Shown piece by piece: positions 3,079-31,409 of a stretch of 64,000 bases of DNA. Position 1 is the first letter of the stretch. The number at the start of each line of letters is the position of its first letter. The position numbers and the translations under genes were made by a program. The DNA is from Kineothrix sp. IPX-CK. Lineage in GTDB: Bacteria; Bacillota; Clostridia; Lachnospirales; Lachnospiraceae. A model generated the notes under the pieces. It worked only from the letters and a program-made list of their open reading frames with translations. It did no database searches and was not told where the DNA came from. The stretch is taken from assembly GCF_039134705.1 (NCBI RefSeq), contig NZ_CP146256.1:4402001-4466000 (forward strand), written 5' to 3'.

Positions 3079-4557
3079 TTATTTCACTCCGATAATAGCG
3101 CCTAAGATTTTCTCTTTATCAGCTTTTTCGTCATATTCTCCTGCCTGTTGTCCATTATATAAAGCAATAATTCTATTAGAGCACTTTTTTACCTCCTCCA
3201 TCTCAGAAGAAATCAGTATAATTCCAATTTGTTCTTTTTCAGCCAATTCTTTCATCATACGGTAAATTTCTGCCTTGGTTCCGACATCAATACCTTTCGT
3301 AGGTTCATCAAATATTAATACTTTAGGTTTACATGACATAGCTCTTCCAATAATTACTTTTTGCTGGTTTCCGCCACTTAAGAATTTAATTTCTTTTTCC
3401 ATATCCGGTGTCTTTACATCATACTCAGCAATTACTTTTTTTGCTAAATCTTCTTCTTTTTTCTTAGATATACCAAATACGCTTTTTAAGTCATCTAATT
3501 TTGAAACACTGATATTCTCTCTGATACTAAGTTCTTGCAAGATACCCTGCGCTTTTCGTTCTTCAGGCAGATAAATCAATCCATGATTCACCGAATAATT
3601 GGTATCTCCAAGCTTCCAATCCTCCCCATCTAGCTTTATCTGTCCTGCATATACAGGTAAATACCCAAAGATCGCCTGCATTAACTCGCTTCTTCCTGCA
3701 CCCACTAATCCTGAAAATCCAAGAATTTCACCCTTTTTCAGATGAAAGCTAATGTCTGTAAAGCGTTCTCCTGTCAGATGTTCCACTTCTAACAGAATCT
3801 CATCTGTAACTTTCTCTGAATAAAAGACCTGGTTTTGATCCACAGCACGGCCTGTCATCTGAGTAATAACCCATGGAATATCTATCTTATGAATATCAGA
3901 ATAGGCAACCTTTTCTCCATTACGAAATACAGTAATGACATCACCTATAGAAAATATTTCTTCCAGTTTATGTGATATGAAAATAATAGCTTTATTTTCC
4001 TTTTTTATCTGCCTTATGATATCAAACAAAATCTGAGCGTCTTTCGTTGTCAGACTGGTAGTTGGTTCATCCAGCATTAATACCTGATATTCTTCGTGAA
4101 CAGTCGCTCTTGCAATCTGAAGCAGCTGCTGTTCTGATACTGTTATATCCTTTACCAGGTCATCAGGCTTTACCGGAATATGAAATTTATCTAATAACGG
4201 TTTTGCTTTTTCTTCTAGTTCTCTTACATTTACCAGACCCTTAAATCCCGACTTTTCATATGGCAGGAATAGGTTTTCTGCTACCGACATATGGCCAAAC
4301 AAGTCAATTTCCTGAGGAACATAGGCAACTTTATCAAACATTTTTTTGCTTCCCATGGCATCCTTACCAGCAATGGAAAGACATCCTTCTTCCGGTTCAT
4401 ATACACCTGTTAAACATTTGATCAATGTACTTTTTCCGGCTCCATTTTCGCCTATGATGCAATGAATTTCTCCTAATTCAAAAGAAATGTCCACTGAGTT
4501 CAAGGCTACTACTCCGGGAAATATTTTTGTGATATTACGCGCCTCTAATACTTTCAT
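3079..4557 (-). CDS. Sugar ABC transporter ATP-binding protein, RbsA/MglA type with tandem ATPase domains
   Basis: About 492 residues with two nucleotide-binding domains. First: Walker A GENGAGKST, signature VSEQQLLQIARA, Walker B VLMLDEPTT. Second: GLVGAGRSE in place of a full Walker A, signature LSGGNQQKVIIGRA, Walker B VLIFDEPTKGIDVG. This is the usual CUT2 pattern. ATG with AAAGGAG seven bases upstream; a TTG codon just before it is less likely. It drives uptake of the sugar bound by the lipoprotein encoded upstream. A hairpin lies between that gene and this one, which would let the binding protein be made in excess. Confidence 0.92.
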   Translation of the reverse strand: MKVLEARNITKIFPGVVALNSVDISFELGEIHCIIGENGAGKSTLIKCLTGVYEPEEGCLSIAGKDAMGSKKMFDKVAYVPQEIDLFGHMSVAENLFLPYEKSGFKGLVNVRELEEKAKPLLDKFHIPVKPDDLVKDITVSEQQLLQIARATVHEEYQVLMLDEPTTSLTTKDAQILFDIIRQIKKENKAIIFISHKLEEIFSIGDVITVFRNGEKVAYSDIHKIDIPWVITQMTGRAVDQNQVFYSEKVTDEILLEVEHLTGERFTDISFHLKKGEILGFSGLVGAGRSELMQAIFGYLPVYAGQIKLDGEDWKLGDTNYSVNHGLIYLPEERKAQGILQELSIRENISVSKLDDLKSVFGISKKKEEDLAKKVIAEYDVKTPDMEKEIKFLSGGNQQKVIIGRAMSCKPKVLIFDEPTKGIDVGTKAEIYRMMKELAEKEQIGIILISSEMEEVKKCSNRIIALYNGQQAGEYDEKADKEKILGAIIGVK

Positions 4558-4577
4558 CAAAGTGCTCCTTTATTGCA

Positions 4578-4620
4578 CAAAAGGAGCCGACTTGTATTTC
4601 AGATGTCCAAGCTCCTTTTG
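4578..4620 (-). terminator. Intercistronic hairpin between binding-protein and ATPase genes
   Basis: CAAAAGGAGC and GCTCCTTTTG are inverted repeats around a 23-base loop. In the operon direction the T run is short (CCTTTTGTG); in the other direction it is TTTTGTTTTT. A partial terminator or mRNA-stabilising hairpin after a binding-protein gene is common in sugar ABC operons. The right-hand sugar operon has a similar hairpin in the same position. Confidence 0.6.
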
Positions 4621-4649
4621 TTTTTAATTTGTTAGTTGGTTTGTACTTC

Positions 4650-5669
4650 TTATTTCACCATTTCAATCCATTCATCAACATTTTCTGAATCTATATATGC
4701 AATTCCTGTATCAACTACTTTTGGAATGTCAATTCCTATGGATGCCTGCCACAGCATTAATACTGACATAGAGCCCTGCATCTGAGGAATGGTAGAGGAG
4801 GTAGCCGTAATAGTTCCGGATTTAACATAATTAAGGATTTCAATTAAGTTATCCATGGAAACGATTGTAACTTGTCCTGTTTTTCCTGCTTCTTCTACTG
4901 CTGCTGCAATACCTGTACCGCTGGCATCACAGTTTAGATATCCTTTTAAATCAGGATTAGCCGCTAATACTGCTGCTGCCTAAGACTGTGCTTCTTCTAC
5001 GCTATCATTATCAATACCTCCATCGATCACTTCAATATTGGGGTATTCTGCTAAAGCATCTAAATGTCCCTGATAACGTTCTGCATGGTTGGGAGCTGTT
5101 GGAACACCCTGCATGACTGCAACTTTTCCTTCTTCTCCAATCAGCTTTGCCAACTGATGCGCTGCAATACTTGCCTGCTCTGTAAAGTTATTTCCTACAC
5201 TTGTTAAATTACTTCCTTCCGGCGCGGGGGCATCAAATAAAATAACCGGAATTCCCTGTTTTTCAATTTCTTCAATAACAGCTTTATTTCCTTCATAATC
5301 CAGTGGATCCAATGCAATACCATCCGGTCTGGTTGCTGCCGCCTGCTCCAGTACGGTGTTTTGCTCCGCTACATCTGCATTTCCAGGGGCTCTGTAATCA
5401 ATCGTTACTTTAATTCCTAATTGTGCGGAAAGAGCATCCGCTTGCTTCTGGGCACCCTTGTTTACTTCATCAAACCATGGATGCACCACTTTGGGAACAA
5501 TTACAAAGGTTAAATCTTTTCCGGTTGCCGCAGGAGCACTTTCCTCTCCTGATGAATTCGAACCTGCTGCCTCTTCCCCTGCAGATGCGGGATTTGACGT
5601 TCCTGAACATCCCATCATGCTGATTGCCATAACCGCCACTAACAATACCGATATTAATTTCTTTTTCAT
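4650..5669 (-). pseudogene. Sugar ABC transporter substrate-binding lipoprotein with one in-frame TAG
   Basis: A 339-codon periplasmic-binding protein of the RbsB/CUT2 family. It starts MKKKLISVLLVAVMAIS with a lipobox around MMGCSG, then an acidic Ser/Gly linker. The frame stops at a TAG (4980-4982) after 229 codons, within ...VEEAQS, and then continues in the same frame with AAAVLAANPDLKGYLNCDASG and a normal C-terminal lobe ending in DEWIEMVK. Total length and motif order are those of an intact family member, so one base change made this stop. It is the first gene of the sugar operon. Either the strain has lost this binding protein, the amber is read through, or the base is a sequence error. 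Confidence 0.85.
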
Positions 5670-5790
5670 TCCTTTTTCTCCTTAAATATTTTTAAATATA
5701 CTTAATTTTTTGGAAGCAACTTTATTATATCTGTATTCATGGCCCCTTCCAATGCGACAGTCTTTAGAATACGTGGGATAGTTTTAATAA

Positions 5791-5823
5791 AAAAGGAGGA
5801 ATATCTTTATATTCCCCCCTTTT
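5791..5823 (-). terminator. Rho-independent terminator of the two-component operon
   Basis: On the minus strand AAAAGGGGGGAATAT, loop AAAG, ATATTCCTCCTTTTTTATT. It is a strong stem followed by a T run. It lies just beyond the MITE that follows the degenerate ATPase gene, so the element was inserted between gene end and terminator. Confidence 0.8.
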
Positions 5824-15584: not shown

Positions 15585-16457
15585 TTATTTAGAATCTTGC
15601 TGTAATTTTCTGTCAAGATACAATTGCAGGGCATCTGAGAATTCTTCCGGGCGTTCCTTCTGAGGCCAATGTTTACATCCTCTCATTAAGTATATTTCGC
15701 AATCGGGAATCCTTTTCCCGGCAAGAATAGTACCTTTTACAGGAACTGCCTTGTCAAGAGTGCCATGTATAAGCAGTGTAGGGGAATTTATTTCTTCAAG
15801 TCTACCAAACAAATCTGTTGTAAGGCCTGTAGATGTAATCTCACTTCTTTGAAATGACATGAAAGGCTTGCCTGCACCAGGCTCCTGCATAACTTTTTGT
15901 ATCTCAGCGACTAAATCATCGCTTATCTTTGATTTATCTCCAAACAAACTGTATTTTAAGGACCATCTGATGATGGATGGATATTTATTTGTCCATGAGT
16001 ACAAATTGTCGTTGAGCTTTGAACGAATAAACCAATGGGTTAACCTATGCCATGACAATTTATCGAATAACCCCCATGCGTCAACCGGCACAAGAATCTT
16101 AATAAGCTCCGGGTATGTCAGTGCCATATTCAGGCATATACCGCCTCCCAGGGACAGCCCGGTCAGGATGACCGGTCTACCCCCCAGTTCTTCGATTATG
16201 CCCTTTACTATATCCGTATAGAACGACAAAGTGTATTCGCCGTTTATCCGGTCGCTCGTTCCGTATCCAGGTAGATCCGGCGCAATGACTTGATACTGAT
16301 CGGACAGCAACGGAATCACCCCGGCCCAGGAAAGCATTGCCGAATCCACACCGGCGCCGTGCAATAATACGATAGTATCGTTACCGTCTCCGGCACAATA
16401 GCATGTTATGCCTACTCCATTTACACGGATATGTTTTTTCTCAATTAGGTTAGTCAT
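15585..16457 (-). CDS. Alpha/beta hydrolase
   Basis: A 290-residue alpha/beta hydrolase fold enzyme. The oxyanion motif is LLHGAGVDSAM, the nucleophile elbow GLSLGGG (Ser about 101), the acid Asp in LIHGTLDKAVP and the His in MRGCKHWPQKE. There is no signal peptide, so it is cytoplasmic. The substrate is unknown; this group includes esterases and C-C hydrolases. ATG preceded by GGAGGTAATCTAA. It lies downstream of a TetR regulator on the same strand with about 70 bases between, so the TetR protein probably controls it. Confidence 0.85.
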   Translation of the reverse strand: MTNLIEKKHIRVNGVGITCYCAGDGNDTIVLLHGAGVDSAMLSWAGVIPLLSDQYQVIAPDLPGYGTSDRINGEYTLSFYTDIVKGIIEELGGRPVILTGLSLGGGICLNMALTYPELIKILVPVDAWGLFDKLSWHRLTHWFIRSKLNDNLYSWTNKYPSIIRWSLKYSLFGDKSKISDDLVAEIQKVMQEPGAGKPFMSFQRSEITSTGLTTDLFGRLEEINSPTLLIHGTLDKAVPVKGTILAGKRIPDCEIYLMRGCKHWPQKERPEEFSDALQLYLDRKLQQDSK

Positions 16458-16530
16458 TTAGATTACCTCCACCATTGCTTTCAACAATCATCTTAATGCA
16501 TGTCCCGGTTTCTAATAATAAACATACCAG

Positions 16531-19349: not shown

Positions 19350-20186
19350 TCATAAATCCCCGCTTTCTTCGGTCTCTTCCATTTCGCTCAAACCTTCCTT
19401 TGTTCCATTTCCTGAACTCTCTTTTTTCGGTCTGCCCCGCCGTTTCACAGCGCTGATCCGTTCCCGTTCTTTCATCCGGTAGCTTTCACCTTCTATAGTT
19501 ATAAAGCTGCAGTGGTGCACAAAACGGTCAAGAATGGCCGTTGCCAGTACCGGGTCAAAAAGAATGCTCCCCCATTCATCAAACTGCTTATTGGAAGTAA
19601 TGATGGTAGAGGCTGTCTCGTATCTTTTGGAAATCACTTCATAAAGATCGTCCACATTTGTCTGGCCCAGCTTCTTGAGCCCAAACTCATCAATTACCAG
19701 CAGATCCGGTGAAATGTATTTCTTCAGTTTCTGGCGGAAAGAGTTGTCCGCACGGGATATGTATAAATCCTCCATCATTTCCGAAAGCGTGGTGAACAGC
19801 ACCGTGTACCCCTGTTCAATCGCTTTTATGCCAAGTGCGATGGAGAGATGAGTCTTACCGGTTCCGGGAAGTCCGATAAAAGCTATATTTTCTTTTTTCC
19901 GGATAAACTCGCAGGTCCCAAGGGCATAGATGACCTGACGGTTCAGGCAGGGCTGCCATGAAAAGTTGAATTCTTCCATTGTTTTATGCTGGGGCATGCG
20001 CGAACGCTTCATCCGATCGTTACGTCTGTTTCTTGAGCGGTTAAGATTTTCATCATTTATGAGCAGTTCAAGAAATTCGATATAGGACATCTGTTCCTTT
20101 GCTGCCTGTTGGGCCCGCATATCCGCTGTTTGGAGAATTCCGGCAAGATGGAGCTTTTTTATCTTTTCCTGTAAGGAATCATTCAT
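19350..20186 (-). CDS. istB: IS21 helper ATPase
   Basis: A 278-residue DnaC-like AAA+ ATPase with Walker A GLPGTGKTH, Walker B LLVIDEFG and sensor IITSNK. IstB assembles on target DNA and helps the IstA transposase choose the site. The start overlaps the last codons of istA by 8 bases. The tail KRRGRPKKESSGNGTKEG is basic and could bind DNA. Confidence 0.93.
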   Translation of the reverse strand: MNDSLQEKIKKLHLAGILQTADMRAQQAAKEQMSYIEFLELLINDENLNRSRNRRNDRMKRSRMPQHKTMEEFNFSWQPCLNRQVIYALGTCEFIRKKENIAFIGLPGTGKTHLSIALGIKAIEQGYTVLFTTLSEMMEDLYISRADNSFRQKLKKYISPDLLVIDEFGLKKLGQTNVDDLYEVISKRYETASTIITSNKQFDEWGSILFDPVLATAILDRFVHHCSFITIEGESYRMKERERISAVKRRGRPKKESSGNGTKEGLSEMEETEESGDL

Positions 20187-21660
20187 GGGAGATCACCCCC
20201 AGTCCTGTCATTTGACGGTAATCCGACAGTTTCCTGATTTTGCTTCTTCCTTCCATGGACAGTTCCTGTTCATCCTCCAGTGGAAGATGGTACAGACCGC
20301 TTTCACAGATCTTTTTTACTGCCCGGTAGGTAATGTTTCCATAATGGCATGCCCTTTGGCAGGCCTTGTCTACGGCATCCTCCCCATATTTTTTTCGGAG
20401 TGCCAGGATACCGGAAATGCTCCGGTAATGATGGCACTGGTACATCTCCGTATCCTTAAATGCTTCCAGAAATGCCAGCGCGCCTGTCCCCACCTGTGCC
20501 ATTTTTTCGCGATAGCTTGACAAAAGCTCCTCCTGTGTTATTGTTTTGGTAGATGGGTAATGACTCTTATCCGTCACATGTTCGCCCTTTGCATTCCCGC
20601 ACAGACTGTGGAGGGCGATCTCTTTTCCGGCATGGTAGATTTTCAATAAATGATTCACTTCGATGACATCCACTTCCATTCCGATATAAGTGTAAGGCAC
20701 GGAATAATAATTGCCGTCATGAACGATATGGCAGTCTGTCCTTACGGTGGCGGCCCCGGATTTTGAAAAGAGAAAGTCCTGCGCAGGAAGCGGCTTTAAA
20801 TATGCTTTTTCTGTCTCAAGATATACGGTTTCCGGTTTTCGGCTTGTAGTCCCGTGTATCCGACGGTTTGCCGTTTCTTTCAGCCATGACAGGAGAAACC
20901 GCTTTGCTTCTTCGATTTCTTTAAAATCCCGTCCCTTAAAGCAGTTTTCTTTTACGTATCTCACGTTCGATTCTACTTTCCCTTTATCGGTTGGTGTGTA
21001 TACCCGGCACGGATTGGGAAGGAAGCCATAGTGCCCGGCAAAAGCGGCATAGGTGCGCTGCACGGTCGGCTCATAAAAGTCTGCCTCAACGATAGCAGCC
21101 TTTAAGTTGTCGATCTTTACGGTCTGGGGAACTCCGCCAAAGTACCGGAATGCCTCTGTGTGGCACCGGATGAAGGTCTGCACGCTCTGATCCAGAGTAA
21201 CAGCAACGTACATGTAGCGGGAGTAGCTCAAAGACATGACAAAGATCCATGCTTTGCGCGGTGTTCCATTTACTCTCAAGGTTCCGATATAACCGAAATC
21301 TACCTGTGCCTCTTCGCCCGGCAGGGAATGCAGCACCATGTAGGCGTGAGGCTGGGATTTCCTTATTTTTTTCACATAATCGCGCAGGGTGGTATAACCG
21401 CAGGCAACGCCGAACTCTTTTTGCAGATCCTGGTGGATGCGGGTAATGGACAATTCCTTGGATAACTGGATTTCTATGTATTCCTTGTATTCATCCAGCA
21501 TGGACGGCCAGGTTCCCTCCTGTGTTTCCTGTGGCAGCTCCTTTCCCTGCGTTTCTTCTCTGAGCACTTTGCGTACTGTTTTTCTGTCAATGCTAAGCAT
21601 CTTCCCAATCTGGGTTTTGTTGTATCCTTTCTGATACAGAGTCATGATTGTAGTTTTCAT
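20179..21660 (-). CDS. istA: IS21 transposase
   Basis: About 493 residues. N-terminal HTH KGYNKTQIGKMLSIDRKTVRKVLREE, and a DDE catalytic core with Asp in EEAQVDFGYIG, Asp in VKIDNLKAAI and Glu in TDKGKVESNVRYVK. A C-terminal beta-barrel region includes HIVHDGNYYSVPYTYIG. Start chosen at the ATG after GGAGGTAGAC. All three acidic residues are present, so the enzyme should be active. Confidence 0.94.
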   Translation of the reverse strand: MKTTIMTLYQKGYNKTQIGKMLSIDRKTVRKVLREETQGKELPQETQEGTWPSMLDEYKEYIEIQLSKELSITRIHQDLQKEFGVACGYTTLRDYVKKIRKSQPHAYMVLHSLPGEEAQVDFGYIGTLRVNGTPRKAWIFVMSLSYSRYMYVAVTLDQSVQTFIRCHTEAFRYFGGVPQTVKIDNLKAAIVEADFYEPTVQRTYAAFAGHYGFLPNPCRVYTPTDKGKVESNVRYVKENCFKGRDFKEIEEAKRFLLSWLKETANRRIHGTTSRKPETVYLETEKAYLKPLPAQDFLFSKSGAATVRTDCHIVHDGNYYSVPYTYIGMEVDVIEVNHLLKIYHAGKEIALHSLCGNAKGEHVTDKSHYPSTKTITQEELLSSYREKMAQVGTGALAFLEAFKDTEMYQCHHYRSISGILALRKKYGEDAVDKACQRACHYGNITYRAVKKICESGLYHLPLEDEQELSMEGRSKIRKLSDYRQMTGLGVISHE

Positions 21661-21804
21661 GTCTACCTCCAGCATAATAAAATTTTCCTCCTTATGGGGA
21701 GAGTCCTTTGTTACGCTTTCAGTATAACTTGGTCTTTACGTTAGGCATAACAAGGTGGGGAATTTTCTCCGCCAAAAGTGGGTATTTTTATTATGCCATT
21801 CACA

Positions 21805-25231: not shown

Positions 25232-26767
25232 TTATTGCTCTTTTGCCCACTTTGATAATACATCCATAAACGGACGCGAAAAACCACATCTATTAATGAA
25301 ATATTTTCTCTCTTCATCTGGAAGGTTAGAAACGCTGTAAATATACGCCATTTGTTGCCACGACTCCATATTGATGTAGTTTTCCTTTTGTTCGCGCAAC
25401 CAATCTGTTGCTTGATTCTGTTTAGCAGCCAATATAATTTCCCTACGTACAAAAGATTCCGAGCGAGGATAGGCATGTATTAACGAGGCAAAATGATTTA
25501 TATAAGGATTCTTGGTAAACAGACTTAGGAGTAGTAGCCTGAAGTATTCGCTACTTTGAACGATATCTGTGCTCAGTAACCGCAATATATGCTCCCCAAT
25601 TTCCTTCCATTTTTCATTGGGGATTTTTTGAACAGAACCCAGATACATGCACACATTAGCAAAACACGGAGTTAGTTTATCAATATTTTCAAGAGTTACA
25701 TCAATCCCACCCGGATGGCCAATTTGGGTTAGTCTGCGATAAAACCAACGAAGACGATCAAACTCGATAGTAGGGCTACTCAGGTACTCGGAAATAATAT
25801 TCCGTACAATATCATCGGTTATACTACTCCAATCCTCATCACTGATATCTCCATAAAAAACTAATCTATATGGATCTCCGTGTGAGTATTTATTAATTAG
25901 TTTTAGAACCGAGTCCTCTTGCTTACTTATAGGCCTATCTTCAATCATGTCAGCGCATAAAGATTTAAACTCACCAGCTTTGTACAATTTTGTTTTATGC
26001 CGCTGCAGCATTAATCGCTGTTGTTTATCTAATGTTGCTGCAACCTTAGACAATGTTATTTTTGCCTCCAGTTCATTTTCACAAAATACAATAATATCAT
26101 CCACATATCTGATGAAATCCATGCCTTGAGCACATAGACTATTGTCGATTGGAATCATTGCAGCCTCTGCAATTAAGTGAACAGGATGCGGACCAACTGG
26201 TATGCCACGAGATACGCCTGCGGTCGTACTTTCAAGAAGCTTTATTATCCATTTAGTTTCTTGGTTAGGTAAGCCTGATTCGATTAGTTGGTTTTCTACG
26301 GTGTGGTGGTATATTTGATTATAATAATCTGCAATATCGCAATATAAAATTGTTTTACGTGGACTACTTTTCTTGTTAGCAGTACGCCAAAACTTGTTCC
26401 ACATATCACGATCTTGATAAAAACCGTGTTGCATATCTGGATTAAAGCGATAACTGAAAACAATATTACTTGAAAGCCGACGTTGTTCAATTAAAGCACC
26501 ATATTGATAAATGATGGAAGATAATACAATACTGTCCTGAGGATCTAACTGCGTAGCTTGTCTATATGATACTTCATCTTTTGGAACAATAAAGCGGCGA
26601 TGAGCTCCTACTTCAAGTTGCGACAAATCAGCCGTAGATAGCTTGTCAGCTAACAAATCCGCTTTATCTTTTACGGCATCAAACTCCAAAATTCGCGGAA
26701 ACAAATCTCCGTCAGAATGTTTTTGAATAAACTCTATAGCCCAAACCAAACTATCTTTTGTGATCAT
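25232..26767 (-). CDS. Reverse transcriptase of the defence-associated (UG/Abi-like) type
   Basis: A 511-residue protein. RT motifs in order: ILYCDIADYYNQIYHHTVE (140-158, catalytic Asp 144), RGIPVGPHPVHLIAEAAMIPIDNSL (187-211), FIRYVDDIIVFC (218-229, catalytic YVDD), then LMLQRHKTKLYKA. There is no group II maturase domain or endonuclease. The last about 230 residues look like stacked alpha helices, as in AbiA/DRT-type RTs that defend against phage. Third gene of an operon with TcmP and a radical-SAM-like protein; ATG after GAGGAGCGACT, 21 bases past the radical-SAM stop. The role is inferred; no repeat template pair or retron RNA was seen. Confidence 0.8.
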   Translation of the reverse strand: MITKDSLVWAIEFIQKHSDGDLFPRILEFDAVKDKADLLADKLSTADLSQLEVGAHRRFIVPKDEVSYRQATQLDPQDSIVLSSIIYQYGALIEQRRLSSNIVFSYRFNPDMQHGFYQDRDMWNKFWRTANKKSSPRKTILYCDIADYYNQIYHHTVENQLIESGLPNQETKWIIKLLESTTAGVSRGIPVGPHPVHLIAEAAMIPIDNSLCAQGMDFIRYVDDIIVFCENELEAKITLSKVAATLDKQQRLMLQRHKTKLYKAGEFKSLCADMIEDRPISKQEDSVLKLINKYSHGDPYRLVFYGDISDEDWSSITDDIVRNIISEYLSSPTIEFDRLRWFYRRLTQIGHPGGIDVTLENIDKLTPCFANVCMYLGSVQKIPNEKWKEIGEHILRLLSTDIVQSSEYFRLLLLSLFTKNPYINHFASLIHAYPRSESFVRREIILAAKQNQATDWLREQKENYINMESWQQMAYIYSVSNLPDEERKYFINRCGFSRPFMDVLSKWAKEQ

Positions 26768-26788
26768 AGTCGCTCCTCATAAATTATA

Positions 26789-27553
26789 TCATTTCTCTGT
26801 TATTGTGCCATCTTTAATGTGAAAAGCGATATTTCTTTCTTCGCAAAATTTAACCACTATCGCCGCCTGCTCATTATAGAACTGTTTGTGCTGTTTATAG
26901 GAGCTAATTTCTTTGCTATAGTTTGTTCGACCAAAAATAATCCTATCTGTAAAAGCAATAGCTTCTAAAATAACATTCAAGTTTTGTTCTATCAAGTTCG
27001 GAGTAGGATATGGCTCCACACTAACCCACGTTTTGCACCCCTGATCATGTAATGCTTTTAATGCTGCAAGGCGCTCTGTATATGGAGCGGCGCCGGGTTC
27101 AATACGTTCGCGATATGCTTCATCCAGCGAAATAAACGTTATCCCATACTCATTGTTTTTAGAATAACCTGCTAATGCAATAGGAAGTAAGCCTTTAGTG
27201 AGGACGGTACACTTTATCCCAGCATCGTTCAATTTTTTTATAGCTGCAAGACTCATTTGCTCTACTTCCTCATAGCCGTACATGAACGGGTCTGTTGTAA
27301 AGCAAAGGTGAACAGATTTAATTTTTGATTTCATCCTTGGAATTTCTCTGTCAAGAATTTCAAGTGTGTTACTTACCAAATATGGCTCTAACCATTCCTC
27401 ATATGAAGCAACCTTTCCAAATCGCTTCTTTTGTAAGAATGCATAACACGGGTACTTGCAACCGTGTGAACATCCCTGCACATGGTTCATGGTATAATCA
27501 CCATATTCTACACCCGTTTTATAAAGCATAGTTTTTCTTAAGATTGTATTCAT
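26789..27553 (-). CDS. Radical-SAM-like protein of the three-Cys-motif (Gp37/Gp68, SPL-like) group
   Basis: A 254-residue protein. Cysteines 28, 32 and 36 (GCSHGCKYPCYAF) form a CX3CX3C cluster motif, followed by VHLCFTTDPFM, CTVLTKGL, YGITFISLDEAYRERIEPGAAPYTERLAALKALHDQGCKTWVSVEPYP, the typical beta/alpha blocks of radical SAM enzymes near spore photoproduct lyase. Phage Gp37/Gp68-type relatives are found with TcmP partners. Gene lies 4 bases after the tcmP-like stop and 21 before the RT. The chemistry is unknown: nucleic-acid or protein modification is possible. Confidence 0.8.
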   Translation of the reverse strand: MNTILRKTMLYKTGVEYGDYTMNHVQGCSHGCKYPCYAFLQKKRFGKVASYEEWLEPYLVSNTLEILDREIPRMKSKIKSVHLCFTTDPFMYGYEEVEQMSLAAIKKLNDAGIKCTVLTKGLLPIALAGYSKNNEYGITFISLDEAYRERIEPGAAPYTERLAALKALHDQGCKTWVSVEPYPTPNLIEQNLNVILEAIAFTDRIIFGRTNYSKEISSYKQHKQFYNEQAAIVVKFCEERNIAFHIKDGTITEK

Positions 27554-27557
27554 AGCT

Positions 27558-28397
27558 TTACAGCTTCTCCTTTAAGATGTGATTGGCTATTCTCAATGCC
27601 AACCGTTGGGCAGCTTCATTTTTGCTGGCTACTGCAAAGCAGAACAGAAAAATAGGCGATTGCTTGGTATTGCGAAATACCCTTGGCTTTGGTGCAACGG
27701 CGGGAAATACCTTTTGAAGGCGTTGAAAGATATACTCTTTGAGCCCCTCGGTATTGATATCCTTCACAATTGATGTAGTCCCGAACAAATTAAGTTGTGG
27801 ATCTTCTTTGTAAAATTCGGTTTGCCACTCATGATCCCCTAACAAACGGTCAATACATTCAACCCAAGTGCTATCTAATTGACCGTCTTTTCGAAGTAAT
27901 CGTTGTAATGCTTGAAAAGGGAATAAGTACCAGACATCAATTGCTTCAGTTTTAGCAACGTTTTCTAAGGTTATCCATGCTACTTGTGTAGCATATGGAT
28001 CCAAAAAAAGCAGTGCTCGATTATATCTCCAATCAATTGATCTGCAAATTTTTGAAAGCTCATTGTTGGCATCGCCTGCGAGAATAGTGACTTTGTGCTT
28101 TAGGAACGTAAATTCAGTATCAACCATCTTTTGTAAAGCCGCTGCTTTGTCGGTATCGGCCTCAATAAAATAGTATTTGTCAAATTGCAATTGCGAAGAG
28201 AGTGCGATCCTTGCTGATCCGGCTATCATCTGGGCTCCATCTCGTGAAGTAATATTTCCTGTCCCAGCAAAAGCGTCAATATAGACTTTTTTAAATTTGA
28301 AATTTTTAAGAGCCTTCAGATACGCTTCAAGATAACTTGAAAATATGTCTAACTTCTCAATTGTCCAATCTCCGCCGAATTTTTGCTCGCTCCCCAT
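27558..28397 (-). CDS. Three-Cys-motif partner protein TcmP-like
   Basis: A 279-residue protein. The N-terminal motif WTIEKLDIFSSYLEAYLKAL and VYIDAFAGTGNI (about 41-52), then YYFIEADTDKAAAL, and RALLFLDPYATQVAW with DPY, give a Rossmann methyltransferase-like fold. It matches the family named for its link with the CX3C-type radical SAM protein encoded next to it. ATG with GAGGTGGAGGA upstream. First gene of the three-gene operon, 42 bases after the recombinase-domain gene. Whether it binds SAM is not known; the FAGTG loop would allow it. Confidence 0.8.
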   Translation of the reverse strand: MGSEQKFGGDWTIEKLDIFSSYLEAYLKALKNFKFKKVYIDAFAGTGNITSRDGAQMIAGSARIALSSQLQFDKYYFIEADTDKAAALQKMVDTEFTFLKHKVTILAGDANNELSKICRSIDWRYNRALLFLDPYATQVAWITLENVAKTEAIDVWYLFPFQALQRLLRKDGQLDSTWVECIDRLLGDHEWQTEFYKEDPQLNLFGTTSIVKDINTEGLKEYIFQRLQKVFPAVAPKPRVFRNTKQSPIFLFCFAVASKNEAAQRLALRIANHILKEKL

Positions 28398-28439
28398 TCC
28401 TCCACCTCACAATTGCACTTATTTGAATATACATTTTTA

Positions 28440-28742
28440 TTATAGCATTAAAATTCCAGAATGAATAGATTTTAAATGCAGATTTATATCCAGTCCATGC
28501 ATAATGTCAATACAATTATTACTTTTTATCAAGATTTTTGAAATTCCCTGCGATACAACCTGTTCTTTAAATTCAGCTAATCCCAACTCCATACAAATTA
28601 AATCCTTAATGTCAATATCGGTAATAGTCTCAGAACATTTACATACTGACTGCTTACCCCTCTCTACCCGGTCAGCACAGCGCCAGACTATCTCGCCGCT
28701 CGATCTTGTAATACGTCGATAGTTGCTACCGTATTCAGCACA
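28440..28742 (-). pseudogene. Serine-recombinase domain protein, 3' exon
   Basis: 101 codons after the group II intron: CAEYGSNYRRITRSSGEIVWRCADRVERGKQSVCKCSETITD, the zinc beta ribbon of large serine recombinases, then a helical tail to ILML. Its first codon TGT joins the upstream exon ...SGLLV exactly at the intron ends. The complete protein would be a recombinase/zinc-ribbon protein without a catalytic resolvase domain. Confidence 0.75.
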
Positions 28743-30645
28743 ATCGAGTAGGAGGCGGTGATTAACCGCCGTCCTCTCACAGCACCGTGCGTACCGTTCG
28801 GTACACGGCGCTTTCAATAGTTGATGTGCACAGACTGATAGCCTGGGGCTAAGTCATAAAAGCCACTGTTTATCAGTCTTTCTTTTGTTAATGCTCTGTT
28901 GACCGCACCCATACCCGATACATACCAGTATTTCCTTCGACTATTGGCCGCTTGGTGTGCAAAATATTCGGGTATACCAAGCTTCATCAGATTGCGTTTC
29001 TTGGTTTTCGGTTTCTTCCATTGTTTCCAAATACACATACGTATCCGATGGTAGAGCCATCCATTGAGGTCCTCGATGGGGTTCTTCATGTCTGCCATTC
29101 CGTAATAGTTAAGCCATCCTCTGGCATATACCTTTATCTTTTCGAGTGCCGGCCGTATGCTCTGAACAGTCCTTCGGGAAGAAAGTTCTCTCAGTTTGGA
29201 TTTAAACTTCTTCCATGACTTCGGATGAACTCGGACATATATGCCCTTTCCATTCCTTCCCAATGCGAAGCCAAGGAATTTAAAATTTCGGATTGCAAAC
29301 ACACTGACCACACGACTTTTCTCTTTGTTTACGGTCAGCTTTAGCTTTCCTTCCAGATAATCCGTGCTTGTCTCCAAAAGTCTCTTTGCGGCTCTTTCGC
29401 TCTTAGCTAACAGGACGATATCGTCTGCATAGCGTACGAACGGAACTCCTCTCTTTTGGAACTCTTGGTCAAACTCATTAAGGTAGACATTTGCCAATAG
29501 TGGCGACAGATTGCCGCCCTGTGGCGAACCTTCCTCCGTGTCTACGACTACTCCATCTTCCATGACACCACTCTTAAGATACCTCTTAATCCACTGTATC
29601 ACCCTTTCATCCTTCACATTTCTCCGAAGAATGTTCAGCAGTAATTCGTGGTTCAAGGTGTCAAAGTACTTCGAAAGGTCAACTGATACTCCATAGCGAT
29701 AACCCTCTTCTGCATACTCTTTCACCTTAATGATGGCATCTTTCGCACTTCTTCCCGGGCGGTAACCGAAGCTTCCATCCGAGAATCGCGCTTCGTAAAT
29801 CGGCATCACTTGTTGTGCAATGGCTTGTTGAAAAATGCGGTCTTTGACTGTTGGAATACCAAGCTTTCGCATTCCACCTTCTGCTTTCGGGATTTCTTTG
29901 CGTCTTACCGGGTCGGGTGTATATTTCCCTTTGTATATCCTCTCAATAATGACTTCTTGATTATCCCTTAGGTATACACCAATCTCATCAACGGTTATTT
30001 CGTCAATTCCCGGCGCTCCCTTGTTTGCCTTTACCCTTTTATAAGCTCTGTTTAGGTTATCCTTAAACAGTATCTTCTCCAAGAGTTCTGGCGGTTCCAT
30101 GTATGGAACTATGCACCTGTCCTTTTCTTTCCATATCGAGCGGAATGACCTCCGCACTTCCGCATACCCTTCATGTTCCGCACTATCTCTTTGCGGACAG
30201 TCTCTGTTACCAGAGTTTTCTGCCTTCATCAGCCATTCCTCCTTTCTCGGTCATACTAGGGACTCCTACTGATTCGGTCCTTCACCTCTCGGCTAATACG
30301 ACCTCTGCTGACTTCTGTATGTTCAGTATTACCTTGCGATAATAGTTACCTTTTTTCCAAGGCGTTCCATACAGATCTCCCCGGGTACTCGCACGTTGCT
30401 TCTCTCCATCCATCTGCCATATTTACCACAATCAGTTCTGTGTAGTTATTGGGCTTCGACTTGTGATGCAGCCTTACCCCTGATTATAGCCTGATATGAT
30501 TTCTGTGCGTCAGACCAGAGATTTGCCATCCAGCTTCCTTCAGATTCGCAGTCACCCACGACACCCTTGCCATTGGCTATGTCCTTCCCACTACCGGGCG
30601 GACTCGGGACTTTCACCCGTTGAAACGTGCGCCCGCCGGGCGCAC
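28743..30645 (-). mobile_element. Group II intron, 1903 bp
   Basis: The 5' end is GTGCGCCCGG, followed by CAACGGGTGAAAGTCCCG. The 3' end has a domain V hairpin (AGCGCCGTGTACCG / CGGTACGCACGGTGCT) and a domain VI hairpin with GGACGGCGGTTAATC and a tail CTCCTACTCGAT. It encodes its own maturase on the same strand. The flanking exons join in frame as GTT/TGT in the recombinase gene, so the limits are exact to the base. Splicing would restore that mRNA. Confidence 0.92.
28814..30229 (-). CDS. ltrA: Group II intron reverse transcriptase/maturase
   Basis: A 471-residue intron-encoded protein. RT motifs include GSFGYRPGRSAKDAI, GVSVDLSKYFDTLNHELL, EGSPQGGNLSPLLANVYLNEFD and RYADDIVLL (catalytic YADD), followed by a maturase (X) domain with GWLNYYG and a short DNA-binding tail. 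No HNH endonuclease domain is seen. It promotes splicing and reverse-splicing of the intron RNA. All catalytic residues are intact, so the intron is potentially mobile. Confidence 0.95.
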   Translation of the reverse strand: MKAENSGNRDCPQRDSAEHEGYAEVRRSFRSIWKEKDRCIVPYMEPPELLEKILFKDNLNRAYKRVKANKGAPGIDEITVDEIGVYLRDNQEVIIERIYKGKYTPDPVRRKEIPKAEGGMRKLGIPTVKDRIFQQAIAQQVMPIYEARFSDGSFGYRPGRSAKDAIIKVKEYAEEGYRYGVSVDLSKYFDTLNHELLLNILRRNVKDERVIQWIKRYLKSGVMEDGVVVDTEEGSPQGGNLSPLLANVYLNEFDQEFQKRGVPFVRYADDIVLLAKSERAAKRLLETSTDYLEGKLKLTVNKEKSRVVSVFAIRNFKFLGFALGRNGKGIYVRVHPKSWKKFKSKLRELSSRRTVQSIRPALEKIKVYARGWLNYYGMADMKNPIEDLNGWLYHRIRMCIWKQWKKPKTKKRNLMKLGIPEYFAHQAANSRRKYWYVSGMGAVNRALTKERLINSGFYDLAPGYQSVHINY

Positions 30646-31010
30646 AACTAAAAGACCACTTAGTACGTTCTGCGAACTGTACCGGGTGGTCTTTCTCTGT
30701 GTGAAGCCATCGCTATTCGTTTGTGCGTTAGTGCGGGTATCTTTTTCAAATTGAGCTGCTACGAATATTTCCATTGAAATAGCATAAGGCACATACTTGC
30801 CGTTGCTCAGTATTTTATCAATTACAGATCGTGACCATTTTAGATTGCCAGACGGAGCGGTTACTTGGTCAGATTCGAGCTTGTTGGCAATTACACCCAA
30901 GCTGGCGCCATCAATATAGTATTGATATATTCTTTGCACCACCTTAATATGTGAGGCAATCGTCCTCACCATACCATCAGGTGTTTTACAAAGCCATAAG
31001 GTATTGCCAT
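30646..31010 (-). pseudogene. Serine-recombinase domain protein, 5' exon with frameshift
   Basis: Starts MAIPYGF after GAAAGGACGGAACAACG, but the frame is lost after VKH. The expected K-T-P-D-G-M is in the next frame, near the GTAAAACAC run about 30983-30992. Then IASHIKVVQRIYQYYIDGASLGVIANKLESDQVTAPSGNLKWSRSVIDKILSNGKYV is a clear Recombinase domain. There is no resolvase catalytic domain, as in the small accessory recombinases of Clostridia mobile elements. The frameshift means that even after intron splicing no full protein is made. Confidence 0.75.
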
Positions 31011-31144: not shown

Positions 31145-31186
31145 AAAAAGACAGCCCCGTCTATTAAAAAACAGGTCTGTCTTTTT
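31145..31186 (-). terminator. Terminator of the tRNA transcript
   Basis: Minus strand AAAAAGACAG ... CTGTCTTTTT with an inner CCTG/CGGG pairing, three bases past the tRNA-Leu 3' end. Confidence 0.8.
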
Positions 31187-31188
31187 GC

Positions 31189-31272
31189 TGCTGGTGGCCG
31201 GACTTGAACCGGCACGGGATTGCTCCCGAAGGATTTTAAGTCCTTTGCGTCTGCCTATTCCGCCACACCAGC
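31189..31272 (-). tRNA. tRNA-Leu (UAA)
   Basis: Minus strand starts GCTGGTGTGGCGGAATAG, anticodon loop CTTAAAA (anticodon TAA), long variable arm (CTTCGGGAGCAATCCCG), T arm GGTTCAAGTCC, acceptor CACCAGC plus discriminator A. CCA is not encoded. Confidence 0.95.
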
Positions 31273-31291
31273 AAGGTGTGCCGATACCAAA

Positions 31292-31373
31292 TGGATGGAG
31301 GTGGATTCGAACCACCGAAGCAATTTGCAGCAGATTTACAGTCTGTCCCCTTTGGCCACTCGGGAATCCATCC
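31292..31373 (-). tRNA. tRNA-Tyr (GUA)
   Basis: Minus strand starts GGATGGATTCCCGAGTGG, anticodon loop CTGTAAA (anticodon GTA), T arm GGTTCGAATCC, acceptor TCCATCC plus discriminator A. It lies 19 bases upstream of tRNA-Leu in the same transcript. Confidence 0.95.
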
Positions 31374-31409
31374 ACATTTCATGTGGTTCCTGTCAGTTAT
31401 ATCATATCG

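Follow-up and report, generated by a model that had tools for sequence, protein, structure and literature searches.

A 64,000-nucleotide stretch of the genome of Kineothrix sp. IPX-CK, hereafter the window, carries three tightly packed genes on its minus strand, which encode in order TcmP, a radical S-adenosylmethionine (SAM) protein and a reverse transcriptase (RT) (Table 1). The identities of the genes and their spacing, 4 bases between the first two and 21 between the last two, are seen directly and reproduce what an earlier note on this DNA, made from the letters alone, had read as one operon: TcmP matches TIGR04474 with 193 bits (cut-off 53), the radical-SAM protein matches PF04055 with 45.2 bits (gathering score 29.5), and the RT matches PF00078 (RVT_1) with 52.2 bits (cut-off 29.6). 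All three reading frames are intact and their catalytic or cluster residues are present; the GC content of the genes is 0.38-0.40, versus 0.42 for the window. By eye, GGAG runs precede the start codons of the radical-SAM and RT genes. The promoter scan omits the TATAAT at 28444-28439 that was picked by eye and reports a 9/12 site at 28497-28469, just upstream; promoter-like sites number 16 over the whole stretch versus 12.7 (sd 3.8) in shuffles. An internal promoter for the RT gene (TATAAT at 26788-26783, 10/12) was set aside, being no more than chance would give.

Table 1. Features of the operon and of its upstream surroundings, in window positions
Feature	Position	Strand	Remarks
TcmP, 279 aa	27558..28397	-	DAFAGTG and FLDPY motifs; class I SAM-dependent methyltransferase fold (predicted)
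Radical-SAM protein, 254 aa	26789..27553	-	Cluster motif CX3CX3C; fold closest to spore photoproduct lyase
UG/DRT-type RT, 511 aa	25232..26767	-	YCDIAD and YVDD; without maturase domain
Candidate operon promoter stretch	28398..28470	-	TATAAT 28444-28439 by eye; GGAGG ribosome site before TcmP; weak
Group II intron with maturase RT (28814-30229)	28743..30561	-	Rfam group-II-D1D4-3, D1D4-1, Intron_gpII; GIIM; TIGR04416
Serine recombinase remnant, part before intron	30613..30972	-	PF07508 38 bits; Recombinase domain alone
tRNA-Leu (taa)	31187..31273	-	Probable edge of variable stretch at 3' end

The first two genes have the look of nucleic-acid enzymes. TcmP scores 313.8 bits against the PADLOC model PDC-M41A (PDC presumably meaning phage defence candidate), and its predicted fold is that of a methyltransferase, nearest to RlmJ and Trm1; a sequence search of the PDB gave no useful relative of it (best E 0.59). 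The cluster motif of the radical-SAM protein reads CSHGCKYPC (C28-x3-C32-x3-C36, window 27472-27446), and its CX3CX3C spacing is kept in 27/27 aligned radical-SAM sequences, down to 47% identity. The usual cluster motif of radical-SAM enzymes is CX3CX2C; other atypical spacings are known in the superfamily, so CX3CX3C is compatible with membership in it. A PDB sequence search with this protein returned nothing. Its nearest predicted fold is spore photoproduct lyase (SPL), from which it differs in sequence (12% identity) and in having CX3CX3C in place of the usual CX3CX2C, and none of the family profiles names it as SPL.

The two genes travel together. The radical-SAM loci compared number 40, of which 13 are in other genomes of the phylum and 27 on viral contigs from two scans; at E <= 1e-60 the radical-SAM gene occurs in 14/398 phylum genomes, the window's own included. 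TcmP lies near it in 34 of the 40 loci (43 to 405 bits, with a TcmP profile made partly from the same loci), which bears out the earlier note's description of TcmP and a CX3CX3C radical-SAM protein as a known pair. The match is a short open reading frame (ORF) not directly adjacent to the radical-SAM gene in L046 and L052, and the six loci without a TcmP match are L055, L060, L061, L062, L083 and L091, two of which (L055 and L083) start at the radical-SAM gene. L060 holds at 4021-5793 a 590-aa ORF with the radical-SAM domain in its C-terminal part, possibly a fusion.

A further association is with restriction-modification genes. A radical-SAM ORF was picked in 39 of the 40 loci, and in 16 of these 39 a restriction-modification gene stands next or next-but-one downstream of the pair: type III mod in eight (L033, L041, L042, L043, L048, L050, L082, L083), HsdM in three (L035, L051, L054), an Eco57I-like gene in one (L047), a HindIII-like gene in two (L037, L045), and GmrSD together with a type II restriction enzyme in two (L038, L044). 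Such loci are found both on viral contigs and in bacterial genomes. Four of them, all on viral contigs (L033, L041, L042 and L043), have two TcmP paralogues by a type III restriction system, in a row made up of a small ORF (with HTH_26 in L041), a TcmP of ~380 aa, a TcmP of ~287-313 aa, the radical-SAM protein and type III mod; res is also present in three of the four. That the pair supplies the methyltransferase which a lone HindIII-like enzyme lacks was considered and rejected, since a DUF1156/N6_N4 methyltransferase gene adjoins on the opposite strand in L037 and L045.

The conserved motifs, the recurrence of the pair and its restriction-modification neighbours are direct observations, and the folds are predictions; from folds and motifs we infer chemical activities: TcmP would methylate nucleic acid in a SAM-dependent way, and its partner would be a radical enzyme like SPL that works on the bases of DNA or RNA. 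The nucleic-acid role that the earlier note had proposed for the pair thus finds some support in folds and neighbours; its further suggestion, that the radical-SAM enzyme acts on RT-made DNA, stays speculative. The predicted folds and the position ahead of restriction-modification genes also give a testable place in which to seek the base change that the pair would make or undo.

The third gene belongs to another kind of protein. The RT fits the PADLOC Drt8 model (PDLC03783) with 521.6 bits over residues 2-510, the runner-up being RT_UG21 with 133.2 bits, and it has no GIIM match; the full-length match makes it a defence-type RT, that is of the UG or defence-associated reverse transcriptase (DRT) kind, and not a group II maturase. 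Residues D144, D223 and D224 are invariant in 17/17 aligned sequences, the window's among them. The earlier note's picture of an Abi/UG-type RT with complete motifs and no maturase domain is thus upheld and, as judged from the model match, the family is one already catalogued, as PADLOC Drt8. The NCBIfam models Drt5 (73.7 bits, cut-off 550) and Drt4 (58.4 bits, cut-off 450) are both far under threshold. The nearest solved chains by sequence include UG15, which we take to be DRT4, as we take UG7 to be DRT8.

The RT family is widely spread, as follows from the varied taxa of its named relatives (Paenibacillus, cyanobacteria, Halomonas, Methanococcus and others), and rare per genome. A protein search scored 7997 candidates, of which 962 are homologues at E <= 0.001; the best 120 of the 962 are 56-98% identical to the window RT, and all but four of these are 498-522 aa long. 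At E <= 1e-50 the RT is found in 1/391 genomes of the class, 2/397 of the family and 6/398 of the phylum, in overlapping samples that each include the window's own genome; around two carriers it occurs in 3/45 and 2/63 genomes, carriers included. In a tree of 28 rows the window RT clusters first with P0003 (95/88) and next with L004 and P0006 (93/96). When viral sequences were scanned with the RT alignment, nine pattern matches came up, none of them a relative; phage records yielded a single match, weak and partial, and close RTs among plasmid records come solely from Rhizobium leguminosarum (3/12 matching records, ~56% identity).

Neither member of the pair accompanies the RT in the relatives whose neighbourhoods we compared. 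These are 11 RT loci (L004, L005, L013-L018 and L066-L068, with L006 left out of the count as a second record from Rhizobium), and TcmP or the radical-SAM gene stands beside the RT in 0/11. What does stand there changes from locus to locus. In Eisenbergiella porci (L004, RT 79% identical, 5.1 kb contig) a Fic gene upstream ends at the RT start; on the Rhizobium plasmid (L005, RT 56%) a DUF1612-HTH gene lies upstream; in L016 (RT 63%) the nearest same-strand ORF is ~960 bases upstream; by eye, L015 has SIR2-like and HerA-like genes further upstream and L067 an acetyltransferase-like ORF upstream. Among the distant RTs, that of L013 is downstream of a DUF3427 helicase and a NUDIX gene, that of L018 is followed by a GmrSD_N gene, that of L068 by an HRDC gene, and that of L066 (127 bits versus the window RT; long branch in the tree) directly by a PADLOC RTasPDDEXK gene (189 bits). 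The HRDC-domain ORF, at 5757-6536 of L068, resembles the end of DpdF. Fic was considered as a regular RT partner and dropped, 2/11 loci (L004 upstream and a fragment downstream in L014) being too few; a BLASTP comparison of the L005 DUF1612 protein with the L004 Fic protein gave no match.

The flanking DNA tells the same story. At the nucleotide level the RT genes of the window and L004 are 72% identical, yet their flanks share no DNA, and therefore no adjacent conserved non-coding RNA (ncRNA) is seen. Comparison of the RT flanks with other loci (six downstream, four upstream) found nothing in common except a 19-base match to L017 (E 0.03-0.04), and the 21-base gap upstream of the RT holds no Rfam hit at gathering threshold, where a divergent RNA could be missed. 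Because its neighbours change and its flanks are not shared, the RT gene apparently travels singly, from one set of neighbours to another. The changing company is directly seen; autonomy and a defence role are what we infer from it and from the model match. As a single-gene module the RT would probably act alone and, on infection, would polymerise DNA that harms or distracts phage or cell, as has been reported for the single-gene RT DRT4 in a commentary (PMC13213688).

Searching from the side of the pair gives the same result: with 27 RT query rows (the window's twice), an RT is present among the picked ORFs of 0/40 radical-SAM loci. The earlier note had held that the operon would be a chance join if homologues of the RT were almost never next to the pair; they are never so in the 11 loci, and the trio as a system finds no support from either direction. 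Contig sizes offer a further comparison. Among the 120 RT and 120 radical-SAM matches listed, the longest contigs coincide at 498037, 4220 and 2084 bases. The first joins P0001 (RT 98%) to P0122 (radical SAM 99%), probably in a close relative; the second joins P0002 (RT 94%) to P0129 (radical SAM 90%), of one source, and may hold a second copy of radical SAM and RT; the third joins different sources and could not hold the two genes. Among the 120 listed matches of each, TcmP has five contig sizes in common with radical SAM and none with the RT, so that such evidence for the full trio elsewhere is absent, and no TcmP with a contig size of 4220 bases is among the 120 TcmP matches listed. Among the loci and listed matches compared, the full trio is seen here alone; radical SAM and RT would be kept together at best in close relatives. 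The open-licence literature, in which a missing paper does not prove absence in print, yielded nothing that links the pair with a defence RT, in line with the earlier note, which knew of no described system of that kind; nor did it yield a paper that names both defense-associated reverse transcriptase and radical SAM, or one on the function of TcmP. The three-Cys-motif partner is named in three papers.

We therefore favour, as the probable explanation, that two separate defence-type modules, the pair and the RT, stand one behind the other in a single operon, within a variable stretch running from the 3' end of a tRNA-Leu gene. The three genes seem to have been joined locally and not to form an established system, and functional coupling of the pair and the RT is possible. 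Several points weigh against two separate modules. The tight spacing could mean a functional unit. A second copy of radical SAM and RT may exist on the 4220-base contig. No restriction-modification gene was recognised downstream in 23/39 pair loci, where we find phage terminase (L084, L089), a sigma-54 regulator (L056), conjugation genes (L057), a transposase (L061), a resolvase (L049), ABC transporter genes (L053), surface-type proteins (L059), unknown proteins and contig ends, among others. The restriction queries, like part of the TcmP profile, were drawn from the same loci, so the counts are not blind, and L034/L036 and L085/L086 are near-duplicates; the 16/39 is therefore a pattern and not a rate. 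The RT neighbours come from 11 loci alone, five of which are remote, their RTs being at most about 30% identical to that of the window, and the L004 contig is 5.1 kb long.

Some of the same observations enter a different reading, one we regard as unlikely, in which the three genes form one integrated system: the pair would modify nucleic acid (host DNA, phage DNA, or the template or product of the RT), the mark would license or restrain the RT, and the RT would sit where many other pair loci have a restriction enzyme. Besides the operon spacing and the 4220-base contig, the window RT does occupy the slot in which restriction-modification genes stand in 16/39 pair loci, and both predicted folds lean to nucleic acid; set against these are the counts, 0/11 RT loci with the pair and 0/40 pair loci with an RT, and the Eisenbergiella RT, 79% identical and without the pair, though on a short contig. 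Were the pair to serve the RT as well, DNA modification and immunity by DNA synthesis would be linked. Distinctly doubtful is a wider proposal that TcmP and the CX3CX3C radical-SAM protein make up a portable module of nucleic-acid modification or demodification whose antiviral effectors are interchangeable (the RT in this operon, GmrSD and restriction enzymes of types I, II and III in other loci), which would mark self DNA or strip phage base modifications that evade restriction, and whose chemistry would here gate or edit RT-made DNA; if true, this would be the first DRT tied to base modification.

The setting of the operon is a variable one. Three same-genus genomes align with the window as far as 31183-31189, where tRNA-Leu has its 3' end, and differ from it beyond; in one of them (L081) an integrase-like ORF lies, by eye, right at the divergence point. 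The end of this gene, followed by differing DNA in the three genomes, is a possible integration hot spot. Collinearity with L079 resumes over 0.9 kb at 15604-16504, which would make the variable stretch ~14.7 kb long. The genes are likely mobile cargo. The tRNA neighbours (tRNA-Leu and tRNA-Tyr, 31187-31374) and the intron-split recombinase of the earlier note were both located, the latter just upstream of the operon and outside it: the group II intron splits the recombinase remnant (28440-30972) between its Recombinase domain and a Zn-ribbon, the continuation at 28742-28440 matching the latter with 23 bits, below the cut-off of 25.3. Because the tRNA gene is only ~210 bases away, there is no room for a resolvase domain. 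The intron's own RT/maturase has the RVT_1 domain in common with the window RT (25 bits between them) and differs from it in having GIIM and an intron RNA, being of a different RT class; no intron RNA was found around the operon RT, the Rfam intron matches being confined to 28743-30561.

The defence island that the earlier note had found the context to fit is not shown: a PADLOC scan of nine of the 14 other ORFs (at least 90 aa, 12.6-25.0 kb) gave no clear match, the best scoring 16.7 bits, and no such island is visible around the operon. That the operon is decayed island cargo with no current role, left over next to a broken recombinase, with insertion sequences and a group II intron, seems very improbable to us; the recombinase shows its Recombinase domain alone and istA/istB-like ORFs lie, by eye, at 19350-21675 in the variable stretch, but none of the three frames is broken and each keeps its catalytic or cluster residues, and a near-copy of radical SAM and RT persists on the 498037-base contig.

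Several known systems resemble parts of the operon. TcmP with a three-Cys partner is described by TIGR04474 and PDC-M41A/B; the window shares the strong TcmP scores and a directly adjacent three-Cys gene, and differs in that its partner is weak against DUF5131 (19.9 bits) and PDC-M41B (18.7 bits). By these scores the partner belongs to a distinct CX3CX3C subfamily, so that, on the earlier note's question of prior cataloguing, the RT (as Drt8) and TcmP (as PDC-M41A) prove to be catalogued and the radical-SAM protein is weakly matched. Among RTs, DRT2, DRT3 and DRT9 are ncRNA-dependent, with a conserved ncRNA by the RT gene; none is seen in the flanks of the window RT, where a divergent one is possible.

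The closest comparison is with DRT8, whose model the window RT fits over its full length, with RVT_1 and without a maturase domain. DRT8 is characterised by a PD-(D/E)XK domain according to PMC12596737, Cap17 effectors are listed together with it in PMC10952713, its mechanism is given as unresolved in PMC13213688 and PMC13314766 (both 2026), and the passages of PMC8934634 mention no RT partners like TcmP or radical SAM. The two genes adjacent to the window RT are those for radical SAM and TcmP. The L066 PD-(D/E)XK protein, as sole query, found no relative among the window ORFs starting at 15000-36000 and none in the other 10 RT loci, where remote members could escape one query. It is very improbable, in our judgement, that the operon is a strict DRT8 system whose usual partner has been replaced by TcmP and radical SAM: the model match and the RTasPDDEXK gene directly after the L066 RT speak for it, and the lack of an L066-type protein elsewhere and the distance of that RT speak against it. 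The parts of the operon are known families and their join is local; its lasting interest lies in the pair, with the restriction-modification genes that often follow it, and in an RT that fits the Drt8 model although no nuclease partner was detected, which bears on how DRT8 is to be defined.

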